A stretch of 32,352 nucleotides of DNA from a virus. The stretch is taken from positions 1 to 32,352 of IMG/VR virus record IMGVR_UViG_3300017971_000608; one strand, written 5' to 3'. Below, one piece after another: positions 23,080 to 32,160 of this stretch. Both the position numbers and the translations under genes were made by a program. Below the pieces are notes generated by a model, which worked only from the letters and a program-made list of their open reading frames with translations, did no database searches and was not told the DNA's origin. Positions within the stretch are counted from its first letter, which is position 1. Every line of letters starts with the position of its first letter.

Positions 23080-23322
23080 ATGAACAAATGTGGACAGAAG
23101 ACGGAGGTCTACTCCAGGGTAGTGGGTTACTACAGGCCCGTCCAACAGTGGAACACAGGGAAAAAGGCGGAGTTCAGAGACAGGGTTGACTACGATCTAA
23201 AAACGGCTCTTCCCAAACTACAGATCACGGAGGAAACCCAGGATGGCGGACAAGAGGATCACGGTCAGGAACAGGCTGACGCTGACGCCTGTCTCCTCCC
23301 CATTGGCGCGGCGGATCCTTGA
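23080..23322 (+). CDS. Stand-alone glycyl-radical domain of anaerobic ribonucleotide reductase type (NrdD C-terminus)
   Basis: The 80-residue product begins MNKCGQKTEVYSRVVGYYRP and continues VQQWNTGKKAEFRDR. This is the C-terminal signature of class III (anaerobic) ribonucleoside-triphosphate reductase; the Gly at residue 16, in RVVGYYR, corresponds to the residue that carries the glycyl radical. A full NrdD has several hundred residues plus a zinc ribbon of two Cys pairs. Here only Cys4 remains and the catalytic barrel is absent, with no other nrdD piece in the window. The ATG at 23080 follows GGGAGG (23067-23072) by seven bases; an in-frame ATG at 23065 has no such site. The last 26 residues overlap the helicase gene and look unstructured. 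A GrcA-like spare-part role is possible; a decayed remnant is the main alternative. Confidence 0.7.
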   Translation: MNKCGQKTEVYSRVVGYYRPVQQWNTGKKAEFRDRVDYDLKTALPKLQITEETQDGGQEDHGQEQADADACLLPIGAADP

Positions 23323-24688
23323 AGAAACGTCTGTCAAGAACCCTGTCTACAGTGACCTGAAGAAGTATTCTCCCTATGAAATCCCCTTCTGGGTCAAGCC
23401 CAAGATCCAGATGTCCAAAGTCCTGAAGGACGGGTCCATCACCATCCCCAGAGGCTACGGCTTTGGAGCCCTGGGCGGACTGGGCGGGCTTCAGGCCCAC
23501 GGCTTCCGTGTCATAGATGACACAGTCACGTCCCCCGTGGAGTTCCCTTCCTGGAAGATCTCCCCCAATGATCTCCAGATCCCTGTCCTTGACAGGCTCC
23601 AGGAAGAGCTACAGCGGCCCACACGTCCCGTCCATAATTTCCTCCTTGTTCTACCCACGGCCACAGGAAAGACAGTCCTGGCGGCTATGGCGGCCTCCCT
23701 GATGGGTCAGAAGACCCTTGTCCTGACCCATCGTCAACTGGTAGCCAATTCCTGGAAGCGGGACCTGGTGAAGACCTACGGGTTCAAGGAGGATGACATT
23801 GGGCTGATCCAGGGGTCCAAGGCCACGATAGGAGCCCAGTTCACTGTGGCCTACCTTCAGACCATGTTCAAGAAGAAGATGTCCCTGTTGGATGATCTGA
23901 AGGAGGAGTTTGGGACGGTCATCTTTGATGAATGTCACCTGTCCCCGGCGCGGACCTTCCATCAGGTGGTGGACGCTTGGCCAGCCAAGTTCAGGGTGGG
24001 CCTGACGGCCACGCCAGAGCGGGGAGACGGGCTGGACGGCGTGATCTTCCTGACCTTCGGGGACCCCTTTGTGGAGATCAAGGGGAACGTGGCGTCAGAG
24101 ACGGCCCAACCCATCACGGACGTAGTGGTCACGAACACGGGGATAGAGCTGGAGGACAAATACGGAGCCACGCTGATCCAGATGTGTGACATTGACGCGG
24201 CGCTCCAGAAGAACCTGAAACGGAACCTGATGATAGTGGACGATGTGAAGCGGGAAGCCATGGCGGGTCATTCCTGTCTGGTGGTCTGTAAGCGGAGGGA
24301 CCACGTCTACACGCTGATAGACCTTCTCCGGCGGGCCTTCGTCTACGCTGAACCCCTGGAGGGAAGGAGGTCAAAGAAACAGATAGCGGCCACGGAACAA
24401 GCCCTGATAGACAGGCGCGTCAAGGTGGCGGTAGGGACCATCCAACTGACCAAGGTTGGGGCTTCCATCAACCCCTTGGACCGGCTGTTTCTGGCGGGCT
24501 CCGTGGGAAACAAGAAAGACACAGAACAGATAGCTGGCCGGATCAGAAGGGCGGCCCCTGGGAAGACAGACGCGGTGATCTATGACTACGTGGACTCCAA
24601 CCCAGTTCTCTGGAACCATTTCAAGCGGAGGAGGCGGGTCTATGCTTCCTTTGGGCTGGAGAAGTTCAAGAACATGTTCCTGACATGA
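23243..24688 (+). CDS. SF2 DNA/RNA helicase, DEAD/DEAH superfamily (DECH box)
   Basis: The 481-residue product has the ordered motifs of superfamily 2 helicases: Walker A LPTATGKT at 137-144, LVLTHRQLV at 159-167, motif II DECH at 229-232, motif III-type GLTATPER at 253-260, and motif VI QIAGRIRR at 429-436. It resembles phage UvsW/RadD-like helicases that unwind or remodel branched DNA. An N-terminal extension of about 110 residues precedes the core. The ATG has a GGAGG nine bases upstream and lies inside the preceding small gene, an overlap of 80 bases. Walker A, DECH and motif VI are all intact, so an active ATPase is expected. The next gene starts near its stop. Confidence 0.88.
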   Translation: MADKRITVRNRLTLTPVSSPLARRILEETSVKNPVYSDLKKYSPYEIPFWVKPKIQMSKVLKDGSITIPRGYGFGALGGLGGLQAHGFRVIDDTVTSPVEFPSWKISPNDLQIPVLDRLQEELQRPTRPVHNFLLVLPTATGKTVLAAMAASLMGQKTLVLTHRQLVANSWKRDLVKTYGFKEDDIGLIQGSKATIGAQFTVAYLQTMFKKKMSLLDDLKEEFGTVIFDECHLSPARTFHQVVDAWPAKFRVGLTATPERGDGLDGVIFLTFGDPFVEIKGNVASETAQPITDVVVTNTGIELEDKYGATLIQMCDIDAALQKNLKRNLMIVDDVKREAMAGHSCLVVCKRRDHVYTLIDLLRRAFVYAEPLEGRRSKKQIAATEQALIDRRVKVAVGTIQLTKVGASINPLDRLFLAGSVGNKKDTEQIAGRIRRAAPGKTDAVIYDYVDSNPVLWNHFKRRRRVYASFGLEKFKNMFLT

Positions 24689-24699
24689 AGGAGGAAAAA

Positions 24700-25194
24700 G
24701 TGGCCAAGTCAAGGTTGAAGGACAGGAAAGCTGAAGCGGCGGAGGCTACAGCGGCGGCGGAGGAAGTAGTGGAGGAGGCGGAGGCCCCAACGTCCAAGGA
24801 AGAGGACACCATGGGGTTCATGGCCAGGCGCTACATGGACCTGAAGAAACAGATCAAGACGCTGAATGACGGCGTCTCCTCCCTGAAGAAGGCCCTGGTG
24901 GAGCGGGTCATGGCGGAGGGATCCAAGGACGCCAAGGGGTCCTTTCACGCCACGGGAGACGGCTTCCAGGTTGACTACACAGCCAGAACGTCCATCTCCT
25001 ACGTGGAGGAAGCGGAGGACATCCTGAAGTCCATTGGTGTCTGGAAAGAGGCCACCACGCGGGTCATAGATGACGCCAAGATTGAAGCCCTTCATGAATT
25101 GGGGAAGATCTCTGACGCGGACCTGGCCAAGCTTCTCCAGAAGGAGATCAACTATGCTCTTTACGTCAAGGATCCGTCAGAAAAGAAGAAGTGA
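24700..25194 (+). CDS. Coiled-coil protein of unknown function, GTG start
   Basis: The product has 164 residues from the GTG at 24700, chosen because AAGGAGG (24688-24694) sits five bases upstream; the ATG at 24685 in the same frame lies within that site's 5' side and has none of its own. The N-terminal 40 residues are Ala/Glu-rich and probably disordered. A long helix follows (RRYMDLKKQIKTLNDGVSSL, then KKALVERVM), then FQVDYTARTSISYVEEAEDI and a C-terminal helical part. I do not recognise the family. Its place between the helicase and nucleic-acid genes suggests a role in DNA metabolism, possibly as a partner protein. Confidence 0.65.
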   Translation: MAKSRLKDRKAEAAEATAAAEEVVEEAEAPTSKEEDTMGFMARRYMDLKKQIKTLNDGVSSLKKALVERVMAEGSKDAKGSFHATGDGFQVDYTARTSISYVEEAEDILKSIGVWKEATTRVIDDAKIEALHELGKISDADLAKLLQKEINYALYVKDPSEKKK

Positions 25195-25198
25195 GTTC

Positions 25199-25759
25199 TT
25201 GACCAACGGAGCGGGACTGTGTGACCTGTGCCAGGAGGAGAAGGCGGCTCCTTCCCCACACTGGCACACACAGGAACCGGAGACCTTCATGGTGTTTGAC
25301 CCAAGGACCTTCAAGGAGGACTACGAATTCTTCAGCCACGTCCAGGAGGCCATGGCGTGGGAGTTCTGGGAGGATGTGGTGGCCTTCACCTATCCTCTGT
25401 GTGACTTCCCACACCCCCCACGGGTGGCGAACCTTCGGAGCTGTCAGCCCGTCTTCATGGACATCATGAACAAGGTGAAGCCCAAGCTGGTGGTGGTAGT
25501 AGGGAAGGACACGGCCAAGTCCCTCTTGGGTCACGGGGTCTCCCCTCCAGACATCAGAACGCTGGCGGGACAGTTCATCCTTCCTGATGACTTCGCTGTG
25601 GACGGATACCTGACGCCCTTCATGGTCATCAGGAGCCCGTCCTTCATCCTGGAATTCGGGGATGACGCGGCGGCGGCTGAACTGTTCGCGGACCACCTAC
25701 AGAGGACGGAGGAACTATGGAAAACGCTTCCCATGGAGATCCAACAGAAAGCAAGATAG
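25199..25759 (+). CDS. Degenerate UDG-fold iron-sulfur protein, probable TTG start
   Basis: The product, 186 residues from the TTG at 25199, looks like a diverged relative of family 4 uracil-DNA glycosylase. It contains exactly four cysteines, at 8, 11, 68 and 82 (LCDLC, then LCDF and RSCQP), matching the C-x2-C and paired downstream cysteines that hold the [4Fe-4S] cluster. It also keeps PKLVVVVGKDTAKSLLG, the helix-strand after the cluster. But the uracil-binding motif GEAPG is replaced by FDPRTFKED, and the catalytic HP(S/A) motif by RSPSF. TTG is the only start that retains the first cysteine pair without a long overlap with the preceding gene, whose stop lies four bases upstream; an ATG at 25070 would overlap that gene by 125 bases. 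A canonical UDG is encoded at 28247. Uracil excision is doubtful; a DNA-binding or structural role is possible. Confidence 0.6.
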   Translation: MTNGAGLCDLCQEEKAAPSPHWHTQEPETFMVFDPRTFKEDYEFFSHVQEAMAWEFWEDVVAFTYPLCDFPHPPRVANLRSCQPVFMDIMNKVKPKLVVVVGKDTAKSLLGHGVSPPDIRTLAGQFILPDDFAVDGYLTPFMVIRSPSFILEFGDDAAAAELFADHLQRTEELWKTLPMEIQQKAR

Positions 25760-26130
25760 ACAAAAGAAAGGAGAAGCTGGTCAGGCTCCCTGACGGGACC
25801 CAGATCAAGGTGTTCTCCAGGTTCATGGTGGCCCAGGCCCTTGGAAGAACGGTCAGGACCGTCAGGGCGTGGGACAAGAAGGGGATCCTTCCTGAACCCA
25901 TCTTCAAGCTACGGGATGGGAGGCGCTGGTATTCGGCCCAGGAAATCAGGATCTTCAAGATGTTACTGGAACAGGAAGGGCTGAACCGTCTTGGCGCGGA
26001 TGGTCGGATGAAAAAGGCTGGAAAGCCAATAGCCCAGACCAATTTCAAGAGGCGGGCGGCCCTGGAAGTTAAGCGGTTGAAGAAGGAGGTCAAAGATGGC
26101 AAAACGGCGGCTCTTGCGTCCCCAATCTAG
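25717..26130 (+). CDS. MerR-like helix-turn-helix DNA-binding protein
   Basis: The 137-residue basic product has a winged-helix/MerR-type domain at about 37-85: MVAQALGRTVRTVRAWDKKG, then ILPEPIFKLRDGRRWYSAQE and IRIFKMLLEQEG. MerR-type domains bind DNA and often act as regulators or excisionase-like factors. The C-terminus is rich in Lys/Arg and looks like a nucleic-acid-binding tail. GGAGG lies five bases before the ATG, which lies inside the end of the preceding gene. No dimerisation coil typical of full MerR activators is present, so a small phage regulator or replication accessory factor is more likely. Confidence 0.7.
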   Translation: MENASHGDPTESKIDKRKEKLVRLPDGTQIKVFSRFMVAQALGRTVRTVRAWDKKGILPEPIFKLRDGRRWYSAQEIRIFKMLLEQEGLNRLGADGRMKKAGKPIAQTNFKRRAALEVKRLKKEVKDGKTAALASPI

Positions 26131-27893: not shown

Positions 27894-28350
27894 CGATCCT
27901 TGGGACGCCATACACCCCAGACCTGTGATCCTGGTGGACGCCATTGGCGTGGTCTACACGCCAAAGAAGTCAAGGATCCTTCGGAAGGTGACCTACGAAG
28001 TTCCCATGATCGTCCGTCAATGGCTGTTTGACGTGACCAGTTTCTACTACGTCTACCTGTTGGTGGACAGTGATAAAATGAAGGCCAGGCTCCAGGGGAG
28101 CCCACGGCCAGCGGTCTTCTTCACGGACTTCCTGGTGGTGAAGAACCAGGCGGATCTGAAGAGCTGGATGACCACGTTCCGGGGCTGTTTGGTCATCTCC
28201 AACCTTCCCGTGAAGTGGGGCGTTTCTGTGAAAGGAGTGAACACCTATGGCGATACTGAAGACGCCATCAAGAAAGCGGACCAGTTGGCCACAGTTAAAG
28301 GAGCGGATGTCTACATGCTCCAACTGCGTTCTATGCGGGGGACGGACTAA
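27886..28350 (+). CDS. Protein of unknown function in the replication block
   Basis: The product has 154 residues from the ATG at 27886, preceded by GGAGGGG; the in-frame ATG at 27832 lies within the loader gene and reads as shadow sequence. It begins MFDDPWDAIHPRPVILVDAI and contains a strand-helix alternation (SFYYVYLLVDSDKMKARLQG, then AVFFTDFLVV and LVISNLPVKWGVSV), suggesting a small alpha/beta fold. I cannot place it in a family. Its last 104 bases overlap the uracil-DNA glycosylase gene, an unusually long overlap for this genome. Confidence 0.55.
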   Translation: MFDDPWDAIHPRPVILVDAIGVVYTPKKSRILRKVTYEVPMIVRQWLFDVTSFYYVYLLVDSDKMKARLQGSPRPAVFFTDFLVVKNQADLKSWMTTFRGCLVISNLPVKWGVSVKGVNTYGDTEDAIKKADQLATVKGADVYMLQLRSMRGTD

Positions 28351-28927
28351 CGTGGTCATGGGGAAGGGCTTCACTGACGCCAGGATGGTCCTGGTGGGGG
28401 AAGCCCCTGGAGCCCATGAAGACGCGGCCGGTCTTCCCTTCGTGGGACCTTCAGGCGTGGTCCTGGACAAGATCCTGAAGGGGCTTGGGCTGAAGTACAA
28501 GGGAAAGAACGTCCCAGAGGACAGGCGGGTCTTCCTGACCAACGTGGTCAGATGTAGGCCACGGGATGGACAGAAGAACAGAGCCCCAAAGCCTGACGAA
28601 ATCCTAGCCTGTAGGCCATGGCTTGAAGAGACCCTACGGATGATCAATCCCAACATCTTGGTCATGATCGGGCGGATCTCTGAAGCGGCCATCATTGGGC
28701 GGCGTGGGTTCTCCTACCCCATGGTCATGGGGAACCTGGTGGTCTACGAAGTGACCCACCCGGCGGCCTACCTTCGGAACACCAAGTCCTTGGACAAAGA
28801 CATGGAGCTGTGGGACCAGATAGCCAAGGACCTGGAGGACTGTGTGGCGGCTGGAGCCAAGAGGCCAAGGTCAACCTATACGCTCCCGCTACTCCTCCAC
28901 GGAAGGAAGGAGGCGTCCAATGGCTGA
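28247..28927 (+). CDS. Family 4 uracil-DNA glycosylase
   Basis: This enzyme removes uracil from DNA. The 226-residue product has the full family 4 signature: a cysteine cluster CSNCVLCGGRTNVV at 24-37, the uracil pocket GEAPGAHED at 51-59, PFVGPSG at 64-70, TNVVRCRP with Cys103, EILACRPWL with Cys122, and the HPAAYL motif at 171-176. The four [4Fe-4S] ligands are Cys24, Cys27, Cys103 and Cys122 by family pattern. The ATG at 28247 has AAAGGAG nine bases upstream, and its N-terminal WPQLKERMSTCSNC fits the family start; an internal ATG at 28307 is a weaker alternative. The first three cysteines use TGC codons although TGC is very rare elsewhere in the window; they lie where this gene overlaps the preceding one. 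Confidence 0.88.
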   Translation: MAILKTPSRKRTSWPQLKERMSTCSNCVLCGGRTNVVMGKGFTDARMVLVGEAPGAHEDAAGLPFVGPSGVVLDKILKGLGLKYKGKNVPEDRRVFLTNVVRCRPRDGQKNRAPKPDEILACRPWLEETLRMINPNILVMIGRISEAAIIGRRGFSYPMVMGNLVVYEVTHPAAYLRNTKSLDKDMELWDQIAKDLEDCVAAGAKRPRSTYTLPLLLHGRKEASNG

Positions 28928-30242
28928 CATGGAAGTTGAAGCCCTGGCTAGTTTCTATGACAGTTCACAGGCGGAGCGGGCTGACTTCCTGAAGATGTCC
29001 CAGGGGATGGACCTGTTCAAGGGGCGGATCACGGAATGGACCTGGATCAGGAATTTCTTCACTGACCACGGGACGATCCCTTCCAGGCGGCTCTTCCTGA
29101 ATAGCTTCCCTTCCATCAAGTTCCCGGCGGAGACGGACCCCCTGTCCTATTGGGCTGAACAGCTATTTGAACGGGAGAAGTTCAACAGGCTGAAGGACCT
29201 GATGGGAGAAGTCAGGACGGACCTGGAGTCCCTGGATGAAGACGCGGCCACAAAGGCGTCCCAGAAGGTGTTTGAAGCTGTGGCCAGCCTTCAACAGGTC
29301 TGGGAACAGAGGCGGGACGTGAACTGGTCAGACCAGGAGGCGGAGAAGTGGGACAGCTACACGCGGCTTCAGGAGGAGCTGAAGCGGGACGGCCTGACGG
29401 CCCCTTGGAAGACCCTGGAAAAGCTGATCCCAAGGTTCAGGCCCAAACAGTTGGCCACGATCATAGCCAGGACATCAGTGGGGAAGACTTGGATGACGCT
29501 GGTCTTCGGTCTTCACTGGTGGAACCAAGGGGCCAAAGTAGTCTATATCTCCAAGGAGATGGGCGCGGAGGAGATAGCCCAACGGGCTGACTGTATGAAT
29601 TTTGGGCTGTCCTACACGCGCTACACGCGGGGGACGCTGACGGCGGAGGAGGAACGGAAGTTCAAAGCGGGGATCAGGAGGCTGAAGAGCGGGAACAAAC
29701 CTGACTTCATCATCGTGGATGACGAAGACCTGGATGAAACTGTGGGCGTTCAGTCGGTCATAGCCAAGATCCAGGAATACAGGCCAGACGTGGTCATCAT
29801 TGACGGAGCTGATCTCTTGATTGGAGCGGACAAGGCGGGGCTGGCGGAGACAGGGGTCAAGGTGGCCAGGATGATGAAGCGGGTGGCCAAAGCCAAGAAC
29901 GTGTTCATCTTCCAGACCTTCCAGGAGCGGAGGGAAGGGGGAGAACAGGAAGGAGGAAAGACAGGAGGAGGACTGGGGACGGTCTACTACGCTGACGCTA
30001 TCACCCATCATTCAGACTGGATCTTTGAACTGGGCGGCGTCAGGAAGGACCCAGTCAGGAAGTTCAAGGTGGAGAAGGCCAGGAACGCGGGACTGGGGGA
30101 GTTCCACATCAGGTTCCTGTTTGACCCCCCATGTTTTGACGAAATACCCCCAGGGGAGATCAAGCCAGAAGAGAAGCGGAGGACGGACACGGTGTCCGTC
30201 CAGATAGAGAACGAATTCAAGAAGCTTCGGGGGAAGTCATGA
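28920..30242 (+). CDS. DnaB-like replicative helicase (SF4)
   Basis: The 440-residue product unwinds DNA ahead of the fork. It has a helical N-terminal domain (TWIRNFFTDHGTIPSRRLFL at 41-60), then a RecA-like core: Walker A ARTSVGKT at 183-190, the SKEM motif at 211-214, Walker B VVIIDGADLL at 291-300, and KVEKARNAG at 383-391 in the place of the DnaB-type basic finger segment. Start 28920 is chosen from AAGGAGG six bases upstream; the longer reading from 28842 adds 26 residues from inside the UDG gene. The stop overlaps the primase start (ATGA), so helicase and primase are made together. Loader, helicase and primase lie close together, forming a self-contained replication set. Confidence 0.85.
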   Translation: MADMEVEALASFYDSSQAERADFLKMSQGMDLFKGRITEWTWIRNFFTDHGTIPSRRLFLNSFPSIKFPAETDPLSYWAEQLFEREKFNRLKDLMGEVRTDLESLDEDAATKASQKVFEAVASLQQVWEQRRDVNWSDQEAEKWDSYTRLQEELKRDGLTAPWKTLEKLIPRFRPKQLATIIARTSVGKTWMTLVFGLHWWNQGAKVVYISKEMGAEEIAQRADCMNFGLSYTRYTRGTLTAEEERKFKAGIRRLKSGNKPDFIIVDDEDLDETVGVQSVIAKIQEYRPDVVIIDGADLLIGADKAGLAETGVKVARMMKRVAKAKNVFIFQTFQERREGGEQEGGKTGGGLGTVYYADAITHHSDWIFELGGVRKDPVRKFKVEKARNAGLGEFHIRFLFDPPCFDEIPPGEIKPEEKRRTDTVSVQIENEFKKLRGKS

Positions 30243-31162
30243 CGGCGGCCCAACTGATGAACCTGTGTGAAGCCTTGGGGATTGAAGGTCTCCATCAGCG
30301 GACCACGAACATCACGGGCCTGTGTCCTGTCCACATGGAGCGGAGGCCATCCTGGGGGATCTCCTTCACCAAGGAATATCACCCCTGGAACTGTTATTCC
30401 TGCGGGGCCAAGGGGACGCTCCCCTGGCTGGTCCAGAAGGTCATGGCGGTCACCAAGGAACGGGCGCTGGAGTTCATTGGGAAGTTTGGATCATGCCGGG
30501 TTCCAGAGTTCAGCGGAGAAGTTCCAGAATTTGAACGGCGCTGGAAGAATGAAGAGATCCAGGTCACACCCCCGTCCCTCTTCAGGCCCTTTGAAGTTCA
30601 CAGGAAGAAGGTGGCCCTTTGGCTAGTCAGGCGCGGGGTCTCCCTATCTGTGGCGGAGGACTGTGGGTTGGGTTACGATCCGAAACAGAACAGGGTGATC
30701 TTCCCCTGGTGGGATGACGCGGGGAAGAAGCTATACGGGATGACGGGGCGGCTACGGTCAGGCCACGGTCCCAAGACGCTTCCCTACTTTGGTTTCAAGC
30801 GGGGGCTGACGCTCTTCAGGCCCCTGGTCTGTGAAGCCAAGTCCAAGGAGCCCCTGGTGGTGGTGGAAGGGGAGCTGGACGCCCTGGCGGCGGCGGCCCA
30901 CGGCCACCCCAACGTGGTCTCCACGGGCGGGGCTCCCAGTAGGAGACAGGCGGAGCTGTTGGTTGAATACGGCCAGCGGATCATCCTGATGTTTGACAAT
31001 GACGAAGGAGGAGAACAGATGATCTCCACAGTGGACGGCTGGATAGGAAGGAGGACGCGGCTGTTCAGGGTGGACTACTACGCGGGAAAGAAGGACCCGG
31101 CGGACATGACCAAGGACGAATTCCACACGTCCCTGAAATCCGTCCGGCTGGTGGGTCTATAG
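30239..31162 (+). CDS. DnaG-like DNA primase with CHC2 zinc finger and TOPRIM domain
   Basis: The 307-residue product makes RNA primers. The zinc-binding domain is complete: CPVH (Cys29, His32) and CYSC (Cys52, Cys55). The TOPRIM catalytic centre shows VVVEGELDAL (Glu210) and MFDNDEGG (Asp253, Asp255), with GRLR at 170-173 from the RNA polymerase-like domain. It is shorter than bacterial DnaG because the C-terminal helicase-binding domain is missing, which is common in phage primases; contact with the helicase must use another surface. Its ATG overlaps the helicase stop. A promoter lies directly after its stop codon. Confidence 0.87.
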   Translation: MTAAQLMNLCEALGIEGLHQRTTNITGLCPVHMERRPSWGISFTKEYHPWNCYSCGAKGTLPWLVQKVMAVTKERALEFIGKFGSCRVPEFSGEVPEFERRWKNEEIQVTPPSLFRPFEVHRKKVALWLVRRGVSLSVAEDCGLGYDPKQNRVIFPWWDDAGKKLYGMTGRLRSGHGPKTLPYFGFKRGLTLFRPLVCEAKSKEPLVVVEGELDALAAAAHGHPNVVSTGGAPSRRQAELLVEYGQRIILMFDNDEGGEQMISTVDGWIGRRTRLFRVDYYAGKKDPADMTKDEFHTSLKSVRLVGL

Positions 31163-31248: not shown

Positions 31249-32160
31249 ATGTCACAGGATGTCACCCAGACCACCTTCCAGGGGAAGACCAGAGGTCAGA
31301 TCAAACGGCTGGCCAAGGCCCTGGGATTGACGGTCTACAAGAGCCAGGACGCCACCATGTTGGCGGAGGCTGTTCTGAAGGCCATGGCGGAAGACGCGGG
31401 GGCCTACGAAGGGCTGTCTGAAGACCTGAAGGAGCTGGCTGAAGCTATCGGGTTTGAAGTCCTGGAGGAAGATGAACTGGACGATGAAGAGGAAGAGGAC
31501 GGGGAGCCCCCGGCGTCCAATCTTCCCCGCCACCTTCTTGGGGCCAACGAACTGAAGAAGGCCCTGGCGAACCAACAGGCGGCCCAGTCTTCAGGGAATG
31601 TTCCCAGGCTCTTCATCAAGGACGGCCAGACCAAGCTGGTCAGGTTCAGGGACAACACCCAGATCACGGGGATCTACTACCACAGCCTGAAGATTGAAGG
31701 GCGCTGGCGCTACTTCGTCTGTTCAGAGGGAACGGAAATCCCTGAAGACAGGCCCGTCAACTGTGCGTTCTGTGCGGCTGGTATCGGGCGCTCTGTCAGG
31801 GCTGTCTATGAAGTCATTGACAGGGAGGAGTGGACGGACAAACAGGGAGTCACCCACAGCCACACCCCCAGGCTGTTTGAAGTGACCCAGAAGCTTCACG
31901 CCAACATCCAACACATAGCCAAGAAGGGAATGTTGACGGATCGTGACGTGGAGATCACCAGGAACGGGGTTCAACAGGCCCAATATATCGTTCTCCCTGA
32001 TCCGGAGCCCACGCCTGAAGTCCCCTCTGGTGTGGACGTACCCCCACGGCTCCGTGACAAGCTGGCGGAGTTCTACACCCCGCTGACGAAGGCGGAACAA
32101 CAGGCGGCCATAGCCCAGTCCGGCGTGAATGGGAATGTGGCGGAACAGGAGGATGTCTAG
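31249..32160 (+). CDS. Probable single-stranded DNA-binding protein with SAP-like N-terminus and zinc motif
   Basis: The 303-residue product has an N-terminal helix-extended-helix region (TRGQIKRLAKALGLTVYKSQ at 14-33, then a second helix) and then a very acidic stretch (72-85). The core, about 118-265, carries KLVRFRDNTQITGIYYHSLK, GRWRYFVCSEG, and CAFC (Cys172, Cys175, perhaps with Cys158), then RLFEVTQKLHANIQHIA and a DRDVEITRNG segment. This layout resembles phage single-stranded DNA-binding proteins with a zinc-stabilised OB fold, of the T4 gp32 kind, though without the acidic tail at the C-terminus. It follows primase and has its own promoter, which fits a protein needed in quantity. 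The family call is tentative. Confidence 0.6.
   Translation: MSQDVTQTTFQGKTRGQIKRLAKALGLTVYKSQDATMLAEAVLKAMAEDAGAYEGLSEDLKELAEAIGFEVLEEDELDDEEEEDGEPPASNLPRHLLGANELKKALANQQAAQSSGNVPRLFIKDGQTKLVRFRDNTQITGIYYHSLKIEGRWRYFVCSEGTEIPEDRPVNCAFCAAGIGRSVRAVYEVIDREEWTDKQGVTHSHTPRLFEVTQKLHANIQHIAKKGMLTDRDVEITRNGVQQAQYIVLPDPEPTPEVPSGVDVPPRLRDKLAEFYTPLTKAEQQAAIAQSGVNGNVAEQEDV

Follow-up and report, generated by a model that had tools for sequence, protein, structure and literature searches.

A family 4-type UDG homologue that keeps four cysteines but lacks the uracil pocket, in the replication operon of a group of uncultured phages

A gene for a 201-residue protein, located at 25154..25759 (+) in a viral record of 32,352 bases (the window, read here on one strand), encodes, by profile and alignment, a divergent protein of the family 4 uracil-DNA glycosylase (UDG) group, homologous to it from end to end. 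We call this protein the pseudo-UDG. On our reading, to which we give a probability of roughly 0.55, it is a catalytically dead UDG of this group that serves replication or repair structurally, by contacting other proteins. The basis read from the sequence consists of the homology, the four cysteines, the losses of active-site residues, the selection acting on the gene, and its fixed place in a replication operon near a second, normal UDG.

The initial annotation had the gene running from 25199 to 25759. That frame is open as described, but its start is not the preferred one: the frame extends upstream to an ATG at 25154, which adds 15 codons, and a Shine-Dalgarno-like AAGGAG at 25141..25146 (+) lies 7 nt ahead of this ATG and is present with the L017 orthologue too. 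The ATG is retained in two sister phages, and the more distant of these has the AAGGAG at identical spacing, while at the position of the window's TTG 25199 it has CTT and so no start codon. The true start is therefore most likely ATG 25154 rather than TTG 25199. An antisense ORF at 25166-25696 was dropped as a gene, because only a short fragment of that region is open in L016 and L017.

With the Pfam UDG model, the window copy scores 20.5-20.7 bits and its orthologues 24.0 and 26.7 bits, so that against the cut-off of 24.3 bits one sister-phage orthologue lies above and the window copy below. A profile search, which the initial annotation had proposed, was performed with the three orthologues against 4,647 viral ORFs, 81 of which are UDGs. 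It gave 65 matches, of which 61 were UDG ORFs, including all of the top 34, and the control profiles (five shuffled and one reversed) gave 0 matches in the same ORF set. The UDG signal of this profile comes mainly from the C-terminal half, and the first 80 residues taken by themselves match weakly. In the hhalign comparison with stand-alone viral UDGs, residues 1-201 were aligned over 201 columns with a probability of 96.9% and an E-value of 2.8e-10. All NCBIfam matches are type 4 or UdgX models, although far under their curated cut-offs: for TIGR00758 the pseudo-UDGs reach 15-19 bits against a curated value of 125.3, which the canonical neighbour passes with 127.4, and the best score for the window copy is 20.8 bits with TIGR03914 (UdgX).

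The predicted structure agrees with the profiles. AlphaFold was given an alignment of 39 rows (3 orthologues and 36 canonical UDGs) and returned a model with pLDDT 79.2 and pTM 0.79; from the orthologues alone (3 rows) the pLDDT was 35 and the model was unusable. At E<=1e-3 the 39-row model has 36 PDB matches, every one a UdgX or family 4 structure, with TM values of 0.61-0.69 by query length, and the best of them are UdgX. Since UDG rows were in its alignment, the model indicates that the sequence is compatible with a UDG fold and is not independent proof. Nevertheless, the fold proposed in the initial annotation is supported, and nothing unlike a UDG was predicted.

The window copy has exactly four cysteines, all conserved across the orthologues, as the initial annotation had read them. 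The first pair, C23 and C26 (C-x2-C, 25220..25231, +), is an intact motif; one alignment places it pair-to-pair on the family 4 ligands, and the many-row MAFFT alignments (32 and 39 rows) place it three residues off. The second pair, C83 and C97 (C-x13-C, 25400..25444, +), is invariant in both the 32-row and the 39-row alignments, and its spacing of 13 residues is two below that of the canonical enzymes, with no insertion. From this pattern we infer that the four cysteines hold a 4Fe-4S cluster, and zinc may take its place. The segment that follows the cysteines, PKLVVVVGKDTAK, is present as first read, and the pseudo-UDG shares with family 4 enzymes (Thermus UDGa, Thermotoga TM0511; TIGR00758) the fold, the C-x2-C ... 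C-x(13 or more)-C pattern, the Pro-x-(L/I)-V-V-x-x-G strand and the Pro-(S/A)-x-x-Leu loop. It differs from them in its shorter C3-C4 spacing, in an insertion ahead of the last strand, in its acidic charge, and above all in the active site.

The loss of the uracil pocket is wider than the missing GEAPG that was first noted. Motif 1 (G-E-A/G-P-G) is replaced by V-F-D-P at 25292..25303 (+), with F-S-P in L017 and F-(D/S)-P-x-x across the orthologues; the invariance of this motif in the canonical comparison set is partly a selection effect, because those contigs were retrieved by it. Glu47-Asp48 is retained as (E/D)-D. On the other hand, Phe54 with its PFVG segment and the Asn89 segment are deleted, Asn80 has become Thr or Ser (Thr in the window copy), and Lys83 has become Leu. 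Asp49 was considered as a catalytic Asp like that of family 1 and was ruled out, because the position is Ser in L017. In place of motif 2 there is R-S-P-S at 25631..25642 (+), where the catalytic His155 is Ser in all the orthologues. The replacement of HP(S/A) claimed earlier thus holds for the His only: H-P-S-x-x-L has become S-P-S-F-I-L, in which Pro156, Ser157 and Leu160 are kept and the DNA-intercalation loop Pro-Ser-x-x-Leu remains. In Thermus UDGa, the H155S change lowers k2 from 0.23 to 7.2e-5 per second, about 3,000-fold, and leaves Km nearly unchanged (7.6e-7 against 9.7e-7 M) (PMC5387724). With His155 replaced by Ser, and with Asn80, Phe54 and Glu41 gone as well, uracil excision by the pseudo-UDG is very unlikely.

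Purifying selection maintains the gene, most strongly in its C-terminal half. For the whole gene dN/dS is 0.29-0.37, and for residues 109-170 it falls to 0.03 with the 88% orthologue and 0.19 with the 61% orthologue; dS is ordinary, and therefore the constraint acts on the protein. The most conserved stretch comprises residues 109-166 (from KPKLVVVVGK to IRSPSFIL; 25478..25651, +), and the identity over residues 109-170 is 84-98%. The N-terminal part is more variable, with 39% identity compared to 84%.

Copies of the pseudo-UDG were found in IMG/VR contigs at 100%, 88% and 61% identity; the two contigs at 61% encode the same protein. The number of distinct orthologues known is three. Each of the four related contigs has both the gene and a canonical UDG, as does the window. 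No homologue was found among 50,697 records of cultured phages, none that was convincing among plasmids (best E 0.5), and none by a contig scan of representative prokaryote genomes; contig scans depend on short stretches of identical peptide and may miss remote homologues. A convincing second UDG-like ORF near the canonical UDG was also absent from 79 other viral contigs. The possession of a pseudo-UDG beside a normal UDG is a trait of a small group of uncultured phages.

The genes around it are those of a replication region, all on the same strand. Upstream in the same gene run is an SF2-type DNA helicase (23243..24688; PHROGs phrog_16, E 2e-48), followed by a 169-residue protein with no function assigned (24685..25194), which shares 4 nt with the helicase gene and 41 nt with that of the pseudo-UDG. 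A MerR-type HTH protein (25717..26130; Pfam MerR_1, 28.9 bits) begins 43 nt before the pseudo-UDG gene ends, and overlaps on both sides are like those of a tightly packed operon. The canonical family 4 UDG that had been noted 2.5 kb downstream is present at 28247..28927 with all catalytic motifs (Pfam UDG, 103 bits), and behind it come a DnaB-like replicative helicase (28920..30242; phrog_19, E 6e-38) and a DNA primase with a CHC2 zinc finger and Toprim (30239..31162). The operon also has proteins weakly matching replication-initiation and helicase-loader types. At 31249-32160 the window also encodes a protein that probably binds single-stranded DNA and has a C-x-F-C cysteine pair (phrog_14578, E 1e-4).

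The initial annotation had derived the pseudo-UDG from a duplication of this neighbour. Such an origin is not shown by the data, as the two proteins have 18% identity over 39 residues only and the pseudo-UDG lies on a very long branch outside the 59 canonical UDGs of the tree; a shared clade with the neighbour is, however, not rejected (AU p 0.34).

We account for these observations by the following course. The four cysteines would hold a 4Fe-4S cluster that rigidifies the fold; excision would have been lost together with the pocket and the catalytic residues; the conserved C-terminal face with its Pro-Ser-x-x-Leu loop would contact a replication or repair partner; and the protein would then serve as a structural subunit, comparable to the UDGs of vaccinia virus (D4) and Epstein-Barr virus. 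Those two enzymes belong to family 1, have no Fe-S cluster and are still catalytically active; they are likened to the pseudo-UDG as viral UDG folds with a structural role in replication. The UDGs of poxviruses and gamma-herpesviruses are used structurally, independent of excision (PMC4450493, PMC5934625). There is also a link to polymerases: among the six long fusions of family 4 UDGs examined in other viral contigs the partner was PolA in five and the alpha subunit of PolIII in one. The latter was found at L064:9977-13999, where the UDG is fused N-terminally to a polymerase with PHP, alpha NTPase, finger and HHH domains. In the present phage group, PolA carries an exonuclease and a polymerase domain, and a UDG domain is absent. 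Taken together, the operon, the polymerase fusions and the viral precedents point to a probable structural role in replication. A more specific proposal, which we put forward tentatively and with the odds against it, is that the stand-alone putative Fe-S pseudo-UDG is a replisome subunit that does in trans what polymerase-fused UDG domains do in cis, as a phage counterpart of poxvirus D4 without excision.

The charge of the protein bears on several of the readings. The pseudo-UDG has a pI of 5.2 and a net charge of -8 (only -2 for the L017 copy), compared to +13 for the neighbouring UDG and a median pI of 8.5 for canonical viral UDGs, and therefore any DNA contact would be local or absent. The plain DNA-binding role suggested in the initial annotation is weakened by this, and with a general DNA binder thus made less likely, control of the active UDG becomes the main rival. 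The acidic pseudo-UDG would then bind the very basic canonical enzyme, or compete for its partners, and so limit excision during replication. The opposite charges and the presence of both genes in all four contigs speak for this, whereas several genes separate the two, the charge of the L017 copy is small, and known UDG inhibitors differ in fold and target family 1 enzymes; we consider it rather unlikely. A decoy that binds DNA or uracil and shields sites without cutting them could make use of the retained Pro-Ser-x-x-Leu loop, and in the Thermus enzyme the H155S mutant preserves Km (PMC5387724). Nevertheless, the pocket is without any contacts, so uracil recognition is unlikely, and with the negative net charge in addition a decoy seems very improbable.

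An enzyme of altered specificity, acting on another base or nucleotide in the same fold, was also considered. In its favour, residues 109-166 with their R-S-P-S are very strongly conserved, and the sister phage seemingly makes 7-deazaguanine-modified DNA. Its contig, G001, carries a QueC gene (L015:18758-19552, +), a QueD-like gene (L117:117-617, -) and a DpdA/TGT-like gene (L021:12906-14081, -), from which the phage group probably modifies its DNA in this way; the window stops before this region. But motif 1 offers no conserved acidic residue (Asp in two orthologues, Ser in the third), the motif 2 His and the Asn are missing, the Phe54 segment is deleted, and phages with 7-deazaguanine DNA are known, yet none of the cultured phage records yielded a homologue. 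We regard such an enzyme as improbable. Finally, the weak Pfam score of the window copy, and nothing else, would fit a pseudogene in decay or an ORF open by chance, and the higher scores of the orthologues, the conserved start and Shine-Dalgarno box, and an open frame under purifying selection in three lineages leave this reading next to no probability; it is refuted by dN/dS and conservation.

Among known UDGs, UdgX of Mycobacterium smegmatis provides the top structural matches and the top NCBIfam score for the window copy, but the pseudo-UDG lacks the catalytic motifs as well as the extended R-loop of motif 3, which carries the cross-linking His109. The UDG domains fused to phage polymerases (SPO1-like PolA; LysYB1, Serbin) share its replication context, and some have an eroded motif 1; they differ in being fused and in having the motif 2 His, while the pseudo-UDG is a stand-alone ORF without it. 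In the PolA domains of LysYB1 and Serbin (L032:1998-2504 and L033:1953-2450), motif 1 and Asn80 are eroded while the cysteines and the motif 2 His are kept. UDG domains are common in phages, either stand-alone or fused to polymerases, and may have a purpose beyond repair. The pseudo-UDG is a natural pocket-less UDG under selection, with its cysteines kept and with the same His-to-Ser change that has been studied in vitro, and it would let what this Fe-S fold does without catalysis be probed apart from excision.
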